From Macrotis lagotis (taxonomy: Eukaryota > Chordata > Mammalia > Peramelemorphia > Peramelidae), in assembly GCF_037893015.1 (NCBI RefSeq), contig NC_133658.1, positions 148,798,390 through 148,862,389 on the forward strand: DNA of 64,000 nucleotides, written 5' to 3'. A program made the position numbers and the translations under genes. The notes under the pieces were generated by a model. The model did no database searches and was not told where the DNA came from. It worked only from the letters and a program-made list of their open reading frames with translations. Position 1 is the stretch's first letter. Every line of letters starts with the position of its first letter. This document shows positions 17,815 to 53,817 of this stretch, piece after piece.

Positions 17815-18365
17815 TTTTTTTTTCTTTTAAAATGATGATTAATAAACATTTAAAATATTTTCTTTTTTAATATATTTTCCTACCCATTGAGTCATTTCTT
17901 AAAACAATAAAAAAAGAGAAAAAAGAAAAGACATAAAAGGGAAGTATTTCATCAGAAATTAAGCAACATGTTAACTGAGTCTGATGGCATATGAAATATT
18001 CCATACCTATAGTTTCCCCACTTCTTGACCAAAGGGAAAGTGGTACATTTCCTCATATCTTTTTTTAGGGAAAAGTATTATCATTTTAATTACATAGTAT
18101 TCAGTTCCTTTTTTTCCCTTTCCCAATTTCATCCTTATAGTCATGATATAAATTGTTTTCTAATTCTGCTTTCTTTATTCTTCATCATTTCATAGAAATC
18201 TCATGCTTCTCTGGATTCTTTTATTTATTATTTTTGATAGGACGATGATATTCTATTATATTCATGTGCCACTATTTGTAAGCCATTTACCAATTGACAG
18301 ATTTTTCCCCCCATCTCTTTGCTATGATTCTCAATTGTTTCTAAAACTAACAATATGGCCTCAGG
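17815..18365 (-). mobile_element. old L1 3'-region fragment
   Basis: The plus strand carries antisense L1 ORF2/3' text: 'GATATTCTATTATATTCATG', 'GCCACTATTTGTAAGCC', 'ATTTACCAATTGACAG' and 'TTTGCTATGATTCTCAATTG' parallel the C-terminal coding and 3' region of the intact-length L1 at 28150-28260. The first 250 nt (T-rich 3' part) are less certain. Confidence 0.6.
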
Positions 18366-20214: not shown

Positions 20215-20790
20215 GTTTGAAACATCCGTTCTTTTTTATGTTTTTGATATCTTCTGTTTATTTCATCACCAGAGTAATTCTAAGTATCCTTCCCCCTTCC
20301 TTACAGCCACCCCATATGTCAAATAGAATTTTTTATTGGGGGGGGGTGTCAATAGAACTGATTGATAAAGGGAAATATGCAAAAAAGTGGGCAATGTGTG
20401 ACACCTATGAACATCCCAGTTCTACAAAGGAGTAGGTTGGAGGTTTCTTCTCATATCTGTTCATTCATTTTGCTTGATCTTTTTAAGTCTGTTAAATTTA
20501 CATTTGATTTTTGGGTGTCTAGTTGTTCTTTCCATTTCCATTGTTCTAGTTACTGTGTGTGTGTGTGTGTGTGTATGTATCTACACAGTATATGTGGTCA
20601 TTCCTTTGCCAGTTTGAGAGGTATTGGGTCAAACCTCAGGGCTGTTTATTTTAACATTTCTTTTATTATTAATGATTTGGAATGTTTTCATGTGATTGTA
20701 AATACTTTGAAATTCTTTTGAAAATTGTTCAGATCTTTGGGCCATTTATCTATTGAGGAATGACTTGATCTTAGACAAATTGATGGTTTA
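20215..20790 (-). mobile_element. old L1 fragment
   Basis: The segment from about 20600 reads antisense to L1 ORF2 C-terminal coding DNA: 'TTTGAGAGGTATTGGGTCAAA', 'CTTTTATTATTAATGATTTGG', 'TCATGTGATTGTAAATAC', 'GGGCCATTTATCTATTGAGGAATG' (in parts). It parallels 28495-28650 in the full-length L1. The part before 20550 is assigned only by adjacency. A (TG)n run sits at 20554-20574. Confidence 0.65.
20554..20574. repeat. (TG)n microsatellite
   Basis: Ten pure dimers. Confidence 0.95.
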
Positions 20791-26296: not shown

Positions 26297-26319
26297 TTTT
26301 TAGATTAGTGGAATAGTGG

Positions 26320-26492
26320 AAAAACTTTAATAACCCAGTCCTGTATAAACAAGAGAATATTAATAACTTGGGAAAAAATTCCTATTTGACAAGAAATACT
26401 GGGAAAAATGGAAAGCTGTTTGGAAGAAACCAGATATAGACTATTGTAAGAGATACAATAATAAGCTCAAATATATATTAGATCTAAAAGTG
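26320..26492 (+). mobile_element. old L1 ORF2 fragment, plus strand
   Basis: 26380-26450 encodes, with breaks, FDKKYWEKWKAVWKKPD-like text. This corresponds to FDKNCWENWKLVWKKLRLD in the full-length minus-strand L1 near 28990-29060. Orientation is opposite to the L1 sequence that follows. Confidence 0.65.
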
Positions 26493-26529
<37 letters not shown>

Positions 26530-26530: not shown

Positions 26531-26559
26531 TTTTTTATATATTTTTCTACCTCCTGAAT

Positions 26560-27626
26560 CCACCATCTCTCCATCATGTACTTTATGGAACTGTACTTGG
26601 TTTTATTTTGTTAACTAAAGTTTACAAGTCCCTCAAATCTTCCCGCCTTCCAGATTTGTTATTATATAAATTAGTCTCTAAGTCTACTCACTCTATCCTT
26701 CACCAATCCACAAAAGTCTTTTACAGGCTTTTGCAAATCCATTCCTATTCTCTCCTTTGCCCACCTTCCATTTACTTTCTACAACACAACACATTCCCTC
26801 ACATATACATACCAAAATTTATTAAGCCATTCCCCAAGCTATGGCAGCACCTCCTTCTTTCATCATTTATCAATTGGAGAATGGCTTTTATTCTTATAAA
26901 TTTGAATTAGAATCCTGTATGACTTAGAAATGAATTCTTTAGCAGAGAAACATGCTGCAAAGATTTCACCCCACCTTTCTTTCTCTTTTTTGGTTTATAA
27001 GCCTGTTCTCCGATTCAGAGATGTGACAGGTAGCTTTAACCATGCTCCTCTAATTTGTTTATGTCATCTTTTATTTCTAAATTACTTATTTTTAACTTGT
27101 CTTGGTATAGGGTGTGAGGGTGTGAGAAAGTGGTCTATACTTATTTTCTGCTAGATGTTTTTTCAATTTTTCTAACAGTATTTATGGAATAGTGAGTTCT
27201 TGCCCTTGTATCTGGGATCTCTGGATTTGTCAAATATGGCTAGAGTTCTCATTTACTTCTATATATTATGTAATTTATCTGTTCCACTGATCAGCCACTT
27301 CATTTCTTACCCAGTATCAAACTGTTGTAATGATTACAGATTTGTATTATAGTTTGAGATCTGGTACTTTCCAGGCCTCCTTCCTCTCCAACTTTTTTCA
27401 TTAATTCTCTTATATTCTTGACCTTTTGTTCTTTTTTTCCTAGCTTTCCAAAGTAATTCTTTCTTAGTTTTATTGGTATAACACATAAGTTAATTAGTTT
27501 AGACAATGAATTCTTTGATAGTTTGGTGATCTAGCACTTAAGAAAATTAATTTAGTTAATGTTGGCATTTTTATTTTATTTATTGGCTTTGTTTACTCAT
27601 GAGCAATGAGGATTTATCCAATTATT
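26560..27626 (-). mobile_element. old L1 (3' portion of a U6-L1 chimera), left part
   Basis: The plus strand is antisense to L1 ORF2. 'TATACATACCAAAATTTATTAAG' and 'CATTCCCCAAGC' match 28158-28190 of the full-length L1, and 'CTTACCCAGTATCAAACTG' with 'GATTACAGATTTGTATTATAG' matches 29165-29210. It is highly decayed. It continues, after the younger L1 insertion, at 34445-34607 and 34799-34969. Confidence 0.8.
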
Positions 27627-27643
27627 TAGATATGTTTTTATTT
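27627..27643. repeat. target-site duplication of full-length L1, left
   Basis: TAGATATGTTTTTATTT, identical over 17 bp to 34428-34444. It abuts the A-rich 3' end of the element (T-rich on this strand). Confidence 0.95.
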
Positions 27644-28017
27644 TTATTTTTTAATTTAATTTTTATTAAAGATATTATTTGAGTTTTACATTTCCCCCCC
27701 AATCTTGCTTCCCTCCCCCCCTCCCCCCCACAGAGAGCACTCTGTCAGTCTTTACTTGGTTTCCATGTTGTACCTTGATCCAAATTGGGTGTGATGAGAG
27801 AGAAATCATATCCTTAAAGAGAAGAGAAGTCTAAGAGGTAACAAGATCAGACAATAAGCTATCTGTTTTTTTCTAAATTAAAGGGAATAGTCCTTGCACT
27901 TTGTTCAAACTCCACAGCTCCTTGTCTGGATACAGATGGTACTCTCCTTTGCAGACAGCCAAAAATTGTTCCCGATTGTTGCCCTGATGGAATGAGCAAG
28001 TCCTTCAAGGTTGAACA
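27644..28017 (-). other. L1 3' UTR with G-rich tract and poly(A) signal
   Basis: The sense strand carries a run of several G tracts (complement of 27693-27731), a feature conserved in mammalian L1 3' UTRs and able in principle to form a G-quadruplex. AATAAA lies at the complement of 27662-27667, shortly before the A-rich terminus. Confidence 0.85.
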
Positions 28018-31000
28018 TCACTCCCATGTTGCTGTTAGGGTGTACGGTGTTTTTCTGGTTCTGCTCATCTCACTCAGCATCAGTTCATGCAAATCCCTCC
28101 AGGTTTCCCTGAAATCCCGTCCCTCCTGGTTTCTAATAGAACAATAGTGTTCCATGACATACATATACCACAGTTTGGTAAGCCATTCCCCAATTGAAGG
28201 ACATTTACTTGATTTCCAATTCTTTGCCACCACAAACAGGGCTGCTATGAATATTTTTGTACAAGTGATGTTTTTACCCTTTTTCCTCATCTCTTCAGGG
28301 TATAGACCCAGTATTGGTATTGCTGGGTCAAAGGGTATGCACATTTTTGTTGCCCTTTGGGCATAGTTCCAAATAGCTCTCCAGAAGGGTTGGATGAGTT
28401 CACAGCTCCACCAACAGTGTAATAGTGTCCCAGATTTCTCACATCCCTTCCAACAATGATCATTATCCTTCCTGGTCATACTGGCCAATCTGAGAGGTGT
28501 GAGGTGGTACCTCAGAGAAGCTTTAATTTGCATTTCTCTAATAATTATTGATTTAGAGCATTTTTTCATATGGCTATAGATTACTTTGATCTCCTCATCT
28601 GTAAATTGCCTTTGCATATCCTTTGACCATTTGTCAATTGGGGAATGGCTTTTTGTTTTAAAAATATGACTCAGTTTTCCATATATTTTAGAAATGAGTC
28701 CTTTGTCAGAATCATTAGTTGTAAAGATTGTTTCCCAATTTACTACATTTATTTTGATCTTGGTTACATTGGTTTTATCTGTGCAAAACCTTTTTACTTT
28801 AATGTAATCAAAATCATCTAATTGGATTTTGGTGATGTTCTCCAACTCTTCCTTAGTCATAAACTGTTCCGCTTTCCATAGATTTGACAGGTAGAGACTA
28901 GTCCTTGATCTTCTAATTTGCTTATAGTATTGTTTTTTATGTCTATGTCCTGTAACCATTTGGATCTTATCTTGGTAAAGGGTGTGAGGTGTTGGTCTAA
29001 TCTAAGTTTCTTCCATACTAACTTCCAATTTTCCCAGCAATTTTTATCAAAGAGGGAGTTTTTATCCCAGTGGCCAGACTCTTTGGGTTTATCAAACAGC
29101 AGATTACTATAATCATCTCCTGCTTTTACACCTAGTGTATTCCACTGGTCCACCACTCTATTTCTTAGCCAATACCAAACAGTTTTGATGATTGATGCTT
29201 TATAACATAATTTTAGATCAGGTAGGGCTAAGCCACCTTCTTTTATACTTTTTTTCATTAAGTTAGCTCCTGGAAATTGTTGACTTTTTATTTCTCCATA
29301 TGAATTTACTTACAATTTTTTCTAACTCATTAAAGTAATTTTTTTGGAATTTTGATTGGTAGGGCACTAAACAGATAGTTTAGTTTTGGTAGAATTGTCA
29401 TTTTTATCATATTAGCTCCACCTATCCATGAGCAGTTGATATTTGCCCAGTTATTTAAATCTAATTTAATTTGTGTGAGTAGTGTTTTATAATTGTTTTC
29501 AAAAAGATTGTGTCTGGCAAATAGACTCCCAAATATTTTATATTGTTTGAGGTTACTTTGAATGGGATTTCTCTTTCTAGCTCTTCCTGCTGTTTCTTGC
29601 TAGACATATATAGAAAAGTTGAGGATTTATGAGGGTTTATTTTATAACCTGCAACTTTGCTAAAATTGCTAATTGTATCCAGTAGTTTTTTAGATGATTT
29701 CTTGGGATTCTCTAGGTAGACCATCAAGTCATCTGCAAAGAGTGAGAGTTTTGTCTCTTTATTCCCAATTCTAATTCCTTTAATTTCTTTTTCTTCTCTA
29801 ATTGCTGCTGCTAACATTTCTAATACAATATTAAATAGTAGTGGTGATAATGGGCATCCTTGTTTCACCCCTGATCTTATTGGGAATGCCTCTAGCCTCT
29901 CCCCATTGAATATAATGCTTGTTGATGGTTTCAGATAGACACTGCTAATTATTTTAAGGAACAGTCCATTTATTCCTTCACTCTCTAGTGTTTTTAATAG
30001 GAATGGATGCTGTATTTTGTCAAAAGCTTTTTCAGCATCTATTGATATGATCATATGATTTCTGATAGGGTTGTTGATATAATTGAGCATACTAACAGTT
30101 TTCCTAATATTGAACCAAACCTGCACTCCTGGAATACATCATACATGATCATAATGTATTATCCTAGTGATAACTTGCTGTAATCATTTTGCTAAGATTT
30201 TATTTAGGATTTTTGCATCTATATTCATCAGGGAGATAGGTCTATAATTTTCTTTCTCTGTTTTAACTTTTCCTGGTTTAGGTAACAGTACCATATTGGT
30301 TTTGTAGAAAGAGTTAGGCAGAGTTCCATCTTTCCCTATTTTTCCAAACAGTTTATATAGGATTGGAACCAATTGTTCTTTAAATGTTTGGTAGAATTCC
30401 CTTGTGAATCCATCAGGCCCTGGAGATTTTTTTTTTAGGGAGTTCAGTAATGGCTTGTTGAATTTCTTTTTCTGAGATAGGGTTGTTTAGGTATTTAATC
30501 TCTTTTTCATTTAACCTGGACAACTTATATTTTTGTAAATATTCATACGTTTCACTTAGATTATCAAATTTATTGGCATAGAGTTGGGCAAAATAATTTC
30601 GAATTATTACTTTAATTTCCTCCTCATTGGTGGTGAGTTCACCTTTTTCATTTATGATACTAGCAATTTGGTTTTCTTCTTTCTTTTTTTTAATCAAATT
30701 GATCAGAGGTTTATCAATTTTATTGGTTTTTTTCATAATACCAACTTTTGGTTTTATTTATTAATTCAATAGTTTTTTTGCTTTCAATTTTATTAATTTC
30801 TCCTTTAATTTTTAGAATTTCTAATTTGGTACTTAATTGGGGATTTTTGATTTGTTCTTTCTCTAATTTTTTCAGTTGCATGTTTAGTTCATTGATTTCC
30901 TCTTTCTCCAATTTATTCATATAAGCATTTAGAGCTATAATATATCCCCTGAGTGTTGCTTTGAATGAATCCCATAGGTTTTGGTATGTTGTTTCATTAT

Positions 31001-31830
31001 TATCATTATCTAGGATAGAATGGTTAATTCTTTGTATAATTTTTTTTTTGGTCCACTCATTTTTTAAAATGAGGTTATTCAGTTTCCAATTTGTTCTGGG
31101 TCTATATCTCCTTGGCCCAGTATTGCATATAACTTTTCTTCCATTATGACCTGAGAAAGATGTATTCACTATTTCTGCCTTTCTGCAGTTGATCATTGGG
31201 TTTTTATGTCCTAGTACATGGTCAATTTTTGTATAAGTTCCATGCACTGCAGAGAAAAAGGTATATTCCTTCCTATCCCCATTAAGTTTCCTCCATAAGT
31301 CTACCATATCAAATTTTCTAACAATCTATTTACCTCCCTAATTTCTTTCTTGTTTGTTTTATGATTCGACTTATCTAGATCTGATAGTGGGAGGTTGAGT
31401 TCTCCCACTAGTAGAGTTTTGCCTTCTGTGTCTTCCTGTAATTCTTTCAGCTTCTCCTCTAAGAATTTGGGTGCTGTCCCACTGGGTGCATATATATTTA
31501 ATATTGAAATGACTTTATTGTCTATGGTACCTTTTAGGAGGATAAAGTTTCCTTCCTTATCTCTTTTTACGCTATTTATTTTTGCTGCTGCTTTGTCTGA
31601 GATAAGGATTGCTACCCCTGCTTTTTTTACTTCTGCTGAAGCAAAATATATTTTGCTCCAACCTTTTATCTTTACTCTATTTGTATCTCTCTGCTTCAAA
31701 TGAGTTTCTTGTAAGCAGCATATTGTAGGATTCTGGTTTTTAATCCACTCTGCTATTTGCTTACATTCTAAGGGAGAGTTCATCCCATTCACATTCAAGG
31801 TTATGATTACTAATTCTTTATTGCCCTCTG
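28018..31830 (-). pseudogene. L1 ORF2 (endonuclease-reverse transcriptase), broken
   Basis: About 1,270 codons in the ancestral frame. The N-terminal APE-like endonuclease is readable from TLNVNGMNSP through CCLQETHL, but the usual GDFN motif reads GELN (31400-31402) and the SDH motif reads SGH (31149-31151). The reverse transcriptase retains [10 protein letters not shown] and FADD (29728-29739). The C-terminus has the cysteine cluster CWKGCEKSGTLLHCWWSC (CX3CX7HX4C) and ends MCIPFDPAIP... to TLTATWE at 28018. Lesions: frameshifts near 31311, in A-runs at 30727-30733 and 30427-30436, near 29510, 29339-29345, about 29262, and between 28857 and 28959; in-frame TGA at 30184-30186 and 30139-30141. 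No ATG is evident at the expected N-terminus (GNKELVIITLN), so the start is approximate. Confidence 0.93.
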
Positions 31831-32603
31831 TGCTATCTTCCCTCTGTTCTTATTTTTCCCCTTCCCCCTCTTTTATCCATATTCCCCAGTCTTTTGTTTC
31901 TCAAAACCACCCCTTCAGTGTTTTCGCCCTCCTATATCACATCCTCCCCTTTCCCTTTTTCTCTTTTCCCTTCCCTTCCTTTTGTTATTTCCCCTTATTT
32001 CCCCCAATCCTCTTCCCTTTCTCCATACCCCCTCCCCTTTTCCCCTTTTAATACTTGAAAGGTTAGATGTTTTAGAAGTTAACTGAGTATGTGTAGGTTG
32101 ACTTTAAGACAAATCTGATGAGGAGAAGATTCAGGTGTTTCTCCTCTGCTCCCTTCTTCCCCACTATTACCATAGGTTTTTTGTACCTTAGTGTAATGAG
32201 ATTTCCCCCTTCAATCACCTCCCTCCTCCCGTCTCTTTCCTGTCCCCCTTTTTAGGGCGGTAGTGTTTTTTTTTAGATCCTTCTGTCTAAATCATAGAAA
32301 ATTCTGAGTGTCCTTCCCTTCTAGTTCTGTACATTCTGTCGAATAGAGTCAAAATTCCTGAGAGTTATTAGAGTCTTTCTCCCAAGTGGGGTTAAAGACA
32401 ATTACATCCCATTAGATAGTAGTCTCATGGATACGTCATGAATGTCCATCATTTCTGGCTGGGTGTATTCTCTCTGTTAATGTTACATTTCTCAAGTTTT
32501 ATGAGAATCTTTTTTTTTTTACCCCCATGCTGGGGTTTAGCCAATTTCAACTTACTGGATTGCATTTTTTTTTCCTTTTACTGCCCCCCCTTTTTTTACC
32601 TTT
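31831..32603 (-). other. L1 inter-ORF spacer, purine-rich
   Basis: About 770 nt between ORF1 stop and ORF2 start. The ORF2-proximal 250 nt are strongly purine-rich in the sense direction. No sustained frame joins the two ORFs. Human L1 has only a few tens of bases here. Confidence 0.75.
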
Positions 32604-33663
32604 TCATGTGTCTCTTGAACCTCCTGTTTGATGCCCAAATTTTCTGTTTATCTCTGATCTTTTCATCAGAAATTTTTGGAATTCTTCCATTTCATTAAAT
32701 GTCCACCTTTTTCCCTGGAAGAGAAGGCTCAGCTTTGCGGGAAAGTAGATTCTTGGCTGCATTCCAAGCTCCCTTGATCTTCAAAATATCTCATTCCAGG
32801 CCCTTCGATCCCTTAAAGTTGATGCAGCCAGGTCCTGTGTGATCCTTACTGTGGCTCCTTGATATTTAAATTGTTTCTTTCTGGCTGCTTGCAGGATTTT
32901 CTCTTTTATCTGATAGTTCTGCAGTTTGGCCACAACATTCTTTGGTGTTTTCATTTTAGGATCTTTTTCTGGTGGGGATCGATGTACTCTTTTAATAACT
33001 ACTTTGTCCTCCAATTCCATGATATCAGGGCAGTTTTCCATCACTAGATCTTTTAGTATTAAGTCTAGGCTTTTTTCCTCTTCAATGTTTTCAGGAAGTC
33101 CTATAATTTTCAGGTTGCCCCTCTTCGATCTATTCTCGAGGTCAGTGGTTTTGTTTATGAGGTATTTTACATTTGCTTCTATTTTTTTCTGTTTTTTGAT
33201 TTTGTTTAACTGACTCTTGCTGTCTCATGGAATCATTAGTTTCTGTAGACTCCATTATTTTTTGGGGGGAGGAATTTTCTTCATTAACCTTTTGCAACTC
33301 CTTTCCCAATTGGTCAATTCTACTTTTGAAAGAGCTTTCCATTTGACCAATTGAGGTTTTGAGAGCATTAATTTCTTTTTGCATCTGCTCGTTTGAGGAT
33401 CTGAGAGAATTATTCTCATTTTGTAATTGTCTAATTGATGATATGAGAGATTTATTCTCTTTTTGTGTTTGTCCAATTGTACTTTCTAAGGTATTAATTG
33501 TCTCTCCCAAATTTTTAAGCTCCTTCCTTATTTCTTCAAGGAAGTCTTTCTGTGCTGGAGATCAGATTGTATTCTCCTCAGAGGTTCCAGGTCTCTCTGA
33601 GTTGGGGTCTTTCCCTTCCAGGAATTTTTCTATGGATCCACCTTTCCACTGACCCTTCTTCAT
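32604..33663 (-). pseudogene. L1 ORF1 (RNA-binding chaperone), broken
   Basis: The ancestral ORF1 has 352 codons, starting ATG at 33661-33663 (MKKGQWKGGS) and ending in SRDT-stop at 32604-32606. Roughly residues 55-150 form a coiled coil with heptad-like text (INTLESTIGQ, LISSIRQLQNENNSL, MQKEINALKTSIGQM). Residues from about 185 (RGNLKIIGLPE) match the L1 RRM, then a C-terminal domain (IKRVHRSP, ITQDLAAS, IYFPAKLSLLFQGK). L1 ORF1p forms trimers that coat L1 RNA. Lesions: TGA at codon 34 (33562-33564), one extra A in a 7-nt run (33182-33188), TGA at 32781-32783. Confidence 0.93.
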
Positions 33664-34427
33664 TATGCTAAGACCTTGAGTTGGGGGGGGGGGAGGCTGG
33701 TTCACCTGGGCTTGAGATCGCTGAAGGCTTTAGTGAGTGCAGTTTCTCTGGCTGGCTAGTAGGAAGTGCTGGTTGCCTTCTCTGGGGTGTCTGTGACCTT
33801 GGTTTGCCTGAAGGCAGGAGTTGGAACTATTGAATTCTTTTGCCTTCAATCAATGGTGGGCTTTACCCGGGCCTGAGGTGATTCCTCAGCTGGGCTGGTT
33901 CTTCTGCTCACACACCTGGGCCTGAGGCAGAAGTAATTTGCCTTTGTTTGAGGAGAGGCCTCTGTGCAATGGAGGCGTGCCCTCAGAGTTTCTCAGACCC
34001 GAGAAGCCCAGGGATGGTGTCTGCCATTCTCCTGCACTAGAATACTTCCCCCCAGCCTGGTCCCCGAGCTCCAGGGGGACAGCACCAACACCAGTGCCTC
34101 TGCTTCCCCGTGGACCCAAGCCCTCTTCATCCAGCCCCACCTCTGATCCAGCAGGTCCGGCTCTCAGGCCCTCAGACTCCCAGTTCCAATTCAGCTGTTA
34201 ATCTGGTTGATGGGGCGATCCTCTCTTGGAGCCCAGACTCACCCACTCGAATTCGTCCAAGGCTGCTGCCGGAGACAAATCCTGAGGTAGCTGTTCTTTC
34301 TCCTGGCTTTTCTTTCTGGATTTTCTGGATCGGATTTCTTTTAAGAGGTTTGTTTCATGTGATAGATGGGGAAGAGATCAGGAGACTTTAGAACTGTGCC
34401 TGTCTTCTCTCCACCATCTTGGCCGGC
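33664..34427 (-). promoter_or_regulatory. L1 5' UTR / internal promoter region
   Basis: About 760 nt, distinctly more GC-rich than the surroundings, from the intact 5' end to the ORF1 ATG. In L1 elements this region holds the internal Pol II promoter. A C-rich homopolymer (G-run on the plus strand near 33684-33694) lies close to ORF1. Short frames in it are not supported as genes. Confidence 0.8.
34414..34421 (-). promoter_or_regulatory. YY1-like site at L1 5' end
   Basis: CAAGATGG lies within the first 15 nt of the element (GCCGGCCAAGATGGTGG). Human L1 has a YY1 site of the same core at the same place, where it sets the transcription start. Confidence 0.65.
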
Positions 34428-34444
34428 TAGATATGTTTTTATTT
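34428..34444. repeat. target-site duplication of full-length L1, right
   Basis: TAGATATGTTTTTATTT, identical to 27627-27643. Confidence 0.95.
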
Positions 34445-34607
34445 ATATAAAGAGTGTTTTATAATTATCTTCAAAAAGTTCCAACTTATTTTGGAAGGTA
34501 GACTCAAGTATTTTATACTATTTGAATTTTTAAAAACCCCTAATCTTATTGGAAAAGTCCATCTTTAGTTTATTCTCATTTCAAATAATGCTGGCTCTTA
34601 GTTTTAG
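34445..34607 (-). mobile_element. old L1, middle part
   Basis: 'AGTGTTTTATAATTATCTTCAAAAAG' (in parts) matches 29481-29512 of the full-length L1, and 'AGGTAGACTCAAGTATTTTATAC' matches 29520-29545. It resumes exactly where the left part stops at 27626. Confidence 0.85.
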
Positions 34608-34624
34608 AAATATACTATTTATCA

Positions 34625-34781
34625 GGGCAGCTAGGAGTCATAGTGGGTAAAACACTGGCCCTAGAGTCAGGAGCACCTGAGTTCAAATTTGACCTCAGAT
34701 GCTTAATAATTATCTAGCTGTGTGACCTTGGACAAGTCACTTAATCCCATTGCCTTGCAACCCTCCCCCCCAAAAGAAAAT
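34625..34781 (+). mobile_element. marsupial tRNA-derived SINE inside old L1
   Basis: 'GGGCAGCTAGGAGTCATAGTGG', 'CTAGAGTCAGGAGCACCTGAG', 'TCAAATTTGACCTCAGATGC', 'TTAATAATTATCTAGC', 'CCCATTGCCTTGCAACCC' and a short A-rich tail. Perfect 17-bp target-site duplication AAATATACTATTTATCA at 34608-34624 and 34782-34798. Confidence 0.95.
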
Positions 34782-34798
34782 AAATATACTATTTATCA

Positions 34799-34969
34799 TT
34801 TGAAGAAAGGTTCGATTTATGCCAATGTGGTCTAGTTTTTTTTAAAGGAAAGAATGATGTATGTTATCAAAAGATTTTATACATCTATTGATATAATTAT
34901 GACTTTTGTTATTAATCTGGTCAATTATGTTTATAGATTTCCTATTATAAACTAGTCTTATTTTCCTGG
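34799..34969 (-). mobile_element. old L1, 5'-truncated end (RT region)
   Basis: 'TTATCAAAAGATTTTATACATC' and 'ATTGATATAATTATG' align with 30017-30060 of the full-length L1 (the [11 protein letters not shown] coding stretch). The L1 homology stops at the U6 sequence. Confidence 0.8.
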
Positions 34970-35061
34970 AAAAATATGGAATGTTTTTCAAATTTGCATA
35001 TTATTCTTGCACACGGACCATGCTAATCTTTGTATCATTTCAATTTTAGTATACATGGTGT
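34970..35061 (-). pseudogene. U6 snRNA pseudogene fused to L1
   Basis: The plus strand reads as the complement of U6: AAAATATGGAATG, AAATTTGCATATTATTCTTGC, ACGGACCATGCTAATCTT, TGTATCATTTCAATTTTAGT. It covers nearly all of U6 except about the first 11 nt, which are lost or diverged. Several substitutions and a small gap after the GATTAGCATGG core mark it as a pseudogene. Its 3' T-run abuts the 5'-truncated L1 in the same orientation, the arrangement of U6-L1 chimeras formed by template switching during L1 reverse transcription. Confidence 0.88.
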
Positions 35062-35089
35062 CAAAAATGGATGTTTAGTTTGAAAAGCT

Positions 35090-35405
35090 AAACAGAGTTT
35101 GCGTTCAACTCTGGAAGCAAAAGGAAGTCACTTTAGTTTTCTGTCTTTTGAGGAGGGGAGTAAAATGGACAGATATTACCTTAAGGAAAATAGCTTTGGA
35201 AACCTAGGTGACAAAAAACCTAGGTGATAGGCAATGAGGGCCTGAAAAAAGGAGGTAGTTATCTGAGTAGAGAGAAGAGGTTGGATGTGAGAAATGGTAT
35301 GGAGGTAAAAAACAACCAAAATTTGGCAGCTGTGTATGAGAAGCGCTATGGATAGTGCTGAAGGTATCATTTCCAGGGCCAGTCAGTGAATGTAGACAAT
35401 GCAGG
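35090..35405 (-). mobile_element. L2 LINE ORF2 fragment
   Basis: 'AGTCACTTTAGTTTTCTGTC', 'GGAGGGGAGTAAAATGGACAG', 'GCAATGAGGGCCTGAAAAAAG', 'GAGAGAAGAGGTTGGATGTG', 'AAATTTGGCAGCTGTG' are antisense to the L2 ORF2 C-terminal region. Confidence 0.7.
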
Positions 35406-36135
35406 GAGAAATTTGCTGCATCTTCACACTGAATGGAATTTCCAAAACCCTTCCCCTCCTCCTATTTTGTCTTTTTAAGTTTTCTGTGGAGGTTTTCTCC
35501 TAAACAAGAAGTCATGAAATCCTAACAGATCCAAGCCACAATATCCTCTAGCTCCTGGAAAACTTGTCCAAGGACCTGACAGGCTAGTTTTAGTACTAGT
35601 ATTTATTGTCTTTTTCAAGTCTTGGCCCAGAGCCTAGAGCCTGGTAATGCTGGGTGAGTGATTAGACATGGGACCCTCATGCATCTAACTTAAAAATCTC
35701 AATTACACCAGAAAGAGGGTTCAGTGTAACGTATGGGGTCCTGGGGACAGTCGTGTAAATAACAAACAAGGGCACTTGCTGTGATCCATTGTCCATCCCA
35801 TGAGTGGCCAGGCAGCCCTGGTCTGGGCATGGTCCCAAGCTAGCATGTGAGAAGCTGCAGGTCCATCAGATGGCAGCATCAGCCAGCTGTACAATTCTAA
35901 CACACTTGCCCTTCAGTCCTCCTCCAGAAATCATTAATTGCCACTTTCTGGGCAAATACTTAATGCAAAGAATATGACAAAAGCCCCCCTTTCACTGGGA
36001 TGACAAAAGAGTTGCTTAGAAAGTGGTAATAATGGGATAACTAGATTGCTCAAAGAGAAAGCTGGTTCCTATCAAAAAAGATTATGATGGTTTAATTTGG
36101 GGGTATCCCCTTTCTCAAAATGATAGTTAAATAAC
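35406..36135. other. no recognised feature
   Basis: Non-repetitive as far as I can see; a 60-codon frame has no domain. Confidence 0.45.
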
Positions 36136-36137
36136 TA

Positions 36138-36290
36138 TTAATAATATTAGAGTTGTGAGGCATCTTGGATTTTCTCTTCTATCTTTCCTCTCATTTTATA
36201 GAAGAGGAAAGAATTCCAGCGATGTCATATAAGCAAATTAGTAGTAGAGCTGAAGAAGACATACTGATTTTTTTCCATACTTGATGATCT
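36138..36290 (-). mobile_element. MIR-type SINE fragment
   Basis: 'CTCTCATTTTATAGAAGAGGAAAG', 'AAGCAAATTAGTAGTAGAGCTG' in minus order. Confidence 0.6.
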
Positions 36291-36361
36291 ACCTATTAGT
36301 CAGGTTTCTATAAACTAGTTGAGTTTTTAGAAGTTGCTTTCTCTCTGTTCTGAGAAATCTA

Positions 36362-36560
36362 ACTTCTGGATGTGGTAGAAGGAGCACTGCACTAAGAGTG
36401 AACCAACCTAAGCCCAAAACTTGCTTCTTGCTAACTTTGTGATCACAGGTAACCCATCTTCATCAATCTAGTTCTCATTTTCCTAATCTGGAAAAAGAGA
36501 TTTGTTTAAGAATGATCTCTAAGGGTTTTGCCCCTTATCCTCAAATCCCATCATTCTTAT
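36362..36560 (+). mobile_element. MIR-type SINE (marsupial variant)
   Basis: 'GATGTGGTAGAAGGAGCACTG', 'TGTGATCACAGGTAACCC', 'CTCATTTTCCTAATCTGG', 'GAATGATCTCTAAGGGTTTTG' show head, core and tail. Confidence 0.75.
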
Positions 36561-53435: not shown

Positions 53436-53817
53436 CCATCATAGAATACCTGCTTTGAAATCAGAAAGACTCCTCTTCCTCTGTTCAAATCTGATCTCAG
53501 TCACTTACTGGTTGTGTGACCCTAGTAAATCACTTCACCCAATTTTCTCATTTGTAAAATGAACTTGAGAAAGAAATAGCTAACCACTCTAGTACCTTTA
53601 CCAAGAAAACCACAAATCACACCCAATTTGGATCGAGGTACAACATGGAAACAAAGTAAAGACTGACGGAGTGCTATCTGTGGGGTGGGGGGAGGGAAGC
53701 AAGATTGGGGGAAAAATGTAAAACGCAAATAATATCTTTAATAAAAGTTAAAAAAAGAAAACCACAAATAAAATAAAGAAAAGTTATTAAACAACTGAAC
53801 AACAACAATTGAACTCT
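53435..53817 (+). mobile_element. RTE-tailed marsupial SINE, split by L1
   Basis: Body 53435-53617 ('AGAATACCTGCTTTGAAATC', 'GTTCAAATCTGATCTCAGTC', 'GTAAAATGAACTTGAGAAAG', 'CCTTTACCAAGAAAACCAC'). After an L1 insertion the tail resumes at about 53770 with 'AAACAACTGAACAACAACAA'. Confidence 0.88.
53618..53754 (+). mobile_element. 5'-truncated L1 3' UTR (young family)
   Basis: 'CACACCCAATTTGGATCGAGG', 'TACAACATGGAAACAAAG', 'GACTGACGGAGTGC', a GGGG-rich stretch, 'AAGCAAGATTGGGGG', 'AATAATATCTTTAATAAA'. It is nearly identical to the complement of 27660-27795 in the full-length L1. The 15-bp direct repeat AAGAAAACCACAAAT at 53603-53617 and 53755-53769 is its target-site duplication, so this plus-strand copy is only about 137 nt. 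Confidence 0.95.

Follow-up and report, generated by a model that had tools for sequence, protein, structure and literature searches.

The locus described here is, with a probability of about 0.82, an ancient U6/L1 chimeric pseudogene that arose from one L1 integration and was later split by two insertions. It lies in a window of 64,000 nucleotides (the whole stretch of DNA that was analysed), where a U6 snRNA copy and a 5′-truncated L1 share the minus orientation and abut at the T-run of U6, and where a 6.8-kb L1 and a SINE are nested in the L1 part. A single integration of U6 together with L1 is the best reading of this arrangement, not a proven one. The features of the locus, in window positions from left to right, are as follows.

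26299..26492, plus strand: separate L1 ORF2 fragment in opposite orientation, adjoining the (ATCT)n
26493..26529, no strand: (ATCT)n microsatellite, at what is presumably the 3′ end of the old L1
26530..26676, minus strand: presumed 3′ UTR and A-rich tail of the old L1, placed by position
about 26677..27647, minus strand: 3′ piece of the old L1 (ORF2 C-terminal part), aligned to the younger L1 over 26732–27643
about 27648..34427, minus strand: younger 6.8-kb L1 inserted in the old L1, target-site duplication (TSD) 27627–27647 / 34428–34448
34428..34624, minus strand: middle piece of the old L1, with homology to the younger L1
34625..34781, plus strand: SINE inserted in the old L1, TSD 34608–34624 / 34782–34798
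34799..34969, minus strand: old L1, 5′-truncated, ORF2 reverse transcriptase (RT) region, adjoining the U6 T-run and starting at about human ORF2p I567/P568
34970..35072, minus strand: U6 snRNA pseudogene (Rfam RF00026), ending in TTTTT

When the whole 64 kb was searched with cmscan against 4227 Rfam families, the sole match at or above the gathering score was RF00026 (62.1 bits, E 3e-13, model 1–105, window 35072–34970 on the minus strand). The U6 copy that the earlier note had placed at 35061 to 34970 and called nearly complete is thus present, but the 5′ end of the model match lies 11 nt further, and homology is secure only from 35053, that is, from U6 position 21, from where it runs leftwards. 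The 5′ extension anchored at this position stops at U6 position 9 (window 35065), and a score as high is reached at 285 of 2000 sites taken at random from the window (14%), which is not above chance. That is to say, the Rfam match spans the full U6 model, yet the first ~20 nt are uncertain and the 5′ end is not securely full length. By the Rfam match and the base alignment the 3′ end is complete and its T-run intact.

Compared base by base with the vertebrate U6 sequence, the copy is identical at 78 of 98 aligned bases (~20% diverged) and lacks nine U6 bases, three of them within the ACAGAGA region; transitions make up 16 of the 20 substitutions, and 6 substitutions lie at CpG. It therefore looks like an old pseudogene. 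The likeness of the 75 nt upstream of U6 to a U6 gene promoter was equalled at 300 of 1000 random sites, or at 205 of 1000 from another start, and no TATA-like hexamer within one mismatch was found at −40 to −15. A copy derived from RNA would be expected to have such a flank. That U6 was once a true gene was also considered and was rejected, since the 5′ flank resembles the U6 promoter no better than chance.

The junction between the two parts is direct. The T-run of U6 passes without interruption into sense-oriented, 5′-truncated L1 ORF2 sequence on the same strand, as the earlier note had described: homology to the 6.8-kb L1 in minus orientation reaches 34971 and stops there (blastn), so that the end of L1 homology and the end of U6 are about 1 nt apart. 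Right after the T-run the sequence is CCAGGAAAATAAG, and the homologous place in the younger L1 reads ATTCCAGGAGTG. A 2-nt TT overlap is possible at the joint (younger L1 ..ATTCCAGGA versus old L1 ..TTTTTCCAGGA), and the last two T of the run may be assigned either to U6 or to L1. At the homologous place the peptide of the younger L1 aligns with human L1 ORF2p from residue 567 (I-P-G); in human ORF2p numbering, taken over through the younger L1, the old L1 thus starts with the P codon (P568), or with I567 if the shared T are counted, and the truncation point falls inside the reverse transcriptase region. The joint itself has no A-run.

In the old L1, seven of eight stretches match the younger L1 in order, with 65–71% identity; the piece next to U6 matches at 66% (E 4e-16 in blastn, 3e-8 in tblastn), and the 3′ piece was traced to 26677 by tblastn (E 2e-4), its final bases being one TSD copy of the younger L1. 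The eighth stretch, 26535–26680, could be matched to the younger L1 only weakly and out of order, so the 3′ UTR of the old L1 is presumed. Three gaps, of about 427, 91 and 316 bp, appear in the old L1 when it is set against the younger one. The ~427-bp and 91-bp gaps are in the 3′ piece, and the ~316-bp gap, which in the younger L1 holds the RT FADD motif, is tied to the middle piece. The two cuts that the earlier note had seen in this L1 are real, but these three losses come in addition to them. The term "retrogene" used there is an overstatement in view of the lost ORF2 stretches and of the three nucleotides missing from the ACAGAGA region, and nothing seen at the locus suggests a present function. 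As a separate observation, the 427-bp gap begins (26837–26857) in one arm of an 18-nt perfect inverted repeat, which in the younger L1 lies at 28180–28197 / 28634–28651, and ends near the other arm; this may point to a hairpin-related deletion.

The two insertions are bounded by their own duplications, identical at 20 of 21 positions for the younger L1 and at 17 of 17 for the SINE. Since both elements are nested in the old L1, both are younger than it, and the age order proposed earlier, with the chimera first and both insertions later, is supported by this nesting. The younger L1 is apparently full length, as judged from its size and 5′ end; its ORFs are broken into pieces, and its RT piece matches human L1 ORF2p with E 5e-82. 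A 42-bp tandem repeat of 3.3 copies is located at 33343–33479 in its ORF1 region. The SINE is presumably WSINE1-like; its look, together with the earlier note's mention of a marsupial L1 consensus, suggests that the window comes from a marsupial.

Further L1 pieces occur elsewhere in the window. On the plus strand, 53616–53760 aligns over 149 columns (89%) with the 6.8-kb L1 at its 3′ end and is probably a short 5′-truncated relative of it. On the minus strand, two old pieces, 18156–18306 and 20595–20780, match the younger L1 in its 3′ part; they agree in orientation and order and are possibly one split copy.

An L1 that was already in place when U6 arrived should resume to the right of 35072. 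Smith-Waterman alignments with shuffles, made to the expected or a wider L1 region, gave z of only 0.2, −0.5 and −0.8 in three tests on that side, versus 12.6, 7.3 and 10.5 for three old L1 stretches that served as positive controls. Over 35073–36500, blastn (E up to 10) gave one 18-bp match to L1 (E 9.7) and tblastn (E up to 5) no match. Around U6 alone no TSD above chance was found either, 231 of 400 random sites being as good. An independent insertion of U6 into an older L1 is therefore hardly credible: nothing in these searches spoke for it, no L1 is detected past U6, there is neither an above-chance duplication of U6 itself nor an A-run at the joint, and the proposal is already contradicted unless the far-side L1 was deleted up to U6. 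Neither of the two signs of a separate U6 insertion that the earlier note had named was thus encountered.

The duplication that was sought at both ends of the whole unit did not stand out from chance. Random sites did as well as the best positionally constrained candidate, AAACTA/AAACTA, in 134 of 400 cases, as a wider candidate in 102 of 400 and as the unconstrained best in 214 of 300; as a control, the same script found the TSD of the younger L1 at 19/20 and that of the SINE at 17/17. A duplication around the whole unit is absent or, at such an age, decayed. That no above-chance TSD unites U6 and L1 speaks for a sequential course, in which a U6 copy was already there, an L1 landed immediately 3′ of it, and the truncated 5′ end of this L1 came to lie at the T-run by chance. 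However, such a course demands a chance hit at most a nucleotide or two from the end of U6 and in the same orientation. The L1 endonuclease prefers T-runs in target-primed reverse transcription (TPRT), and this preference would place the 3′ end of an antisense L1 at the run, not the 5′ end of a sense one. The 5′ flank does not support a former true U6 gene, though an older U6 retrocopy could have been there. On balance, the sequential course is rather improbable.

The plus-strand L1 fragment in the left flank was recognised by tblastn (26373–26441, E 1e-5) and by Smith-Waterman alignment (z 7.7, core 26301–26441), the remainder to 26492 being assigned by eye; it was not found to resume to the right of U6 (z −0.3 and −1.2, Smith-Waterman with shuffles). 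A twin-priming inversion was considered for 26299–26492 and was rejected, because the fragment sits past the L1 3′ end and duplicates a region that is kept in the minus-strand L1. If the fragment was the insertion target, a deletion is needed, since its continuation is not found right of U6; one has to assume either a partial deletion of the target site or a later rearrangement of the left end. Because the left flank is a 3′-cut L1 for which no counterpart was found on the right, it is conceivable, if unlikely, that an older plus-strand L1 received the chimera by endonuclease-independent or deletion-associated integration, with no TSD made and part of the target lost. The same unexplained fragment, together with the three gaps in the old L1, could be taken to mean that an unrelated U6 and L1 were joined by deletion or rearrangement; but the joint lies at the natural 3′ end of U6 with the T-run intact, which makes such an origin very unlikely.

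The chimera formed in one L1 integration remains the best explanation. The two parts, their common orientation, their contact at the T-run, the lack of detected L1 past U6 and the order of nesting are observed, and one integration and the way of joining are inferred; the lack of an above-chance duplication, the insecure 5′ end of U6, the presumed 3′ UTR and the plus-strand fragment in the left flank speak against it. The course of events would be as follows. In target-primed reverse transcription the L1 reverse transcriptase would start on the 3′ end of the L1 RNA, and cDNA synthesis would then pass to the oligo(U) 3′ end of U6 snRNA, either through a jump between templates or through an earlier ligation of U6 to a truncated L1 RNA. 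U6 and, behind it, an L1 truncated near ORF2 codon 567/568 would thereby arrive in one insertion; the unit would then have decayed by point mutation and deletion and been split by the younger L1 and by the SINE. The earlier note had attributed the chimera to template switching. The chimera itself is probable, but its joining mechanism cannot be narrowed to template switching alone, because the same product is also ascribed to a ligation of the RNAs ahead of reverse transcription (PMC13174262).

Template switching or RNA ligation has been put forward as the source of U6/L1 chimeras, a class known from the literature, and one catalogue gives 180 U6/LINE-1 loci, in which U6 is typically full length and in sense orientation and L1 is often 5′-truncated; in the human cases described there, U6 lies 5′ of a 5′-truncated L1, in sense in 98.3% (PMC13174262). 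It has been reported by Doucet et al. (2015) that marsupials also have such chimeras, and Table 2 of that paper lists 5 repeat-associated U6 copies for the opossum, 2 for the wallaby and 0 for the Tasmanian devil (PMC4476161). In two of the opossum copies the partner is given as an RTE-type element (PMC4476161), so some repeat-associated U6 copies may have a partner other than L1. The locus is of the same kind as this marsupial set, which was restricted by selective parameters (PMC4476161), and a copy as old as the present one would probably fall outside them.

Unlike the mammalian chimeras as described in these two papers (PMC4476161, PMC13174262), the present one has no TSD above chance, its U6 is ~20% diverged with an uncertain 5′ end, two later insertions split the unit, and an opposite L1 fragment lies past the L1 3′ end. 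Like them (PMC4476161; Law and Burns 2026, PMC13174262), it has a sense U6 5′ of a 5′-truncated L1, with the joint at the T-run. The T-run is complete, which agrees with the account of Doucet et al. that internal initiation on U6 was not seen for such chimeras (PMC4476161). The locus thus belongs to a known class and, neat nesting aside, is ordinary within it; the view of the mechanism is left unchanged. Its nested insertions could make it a relative-age marker for an old L1 lineage, and it is a further, apparently old, example, probably from a marsupial, of the preference of L1 for U6 as a partner.
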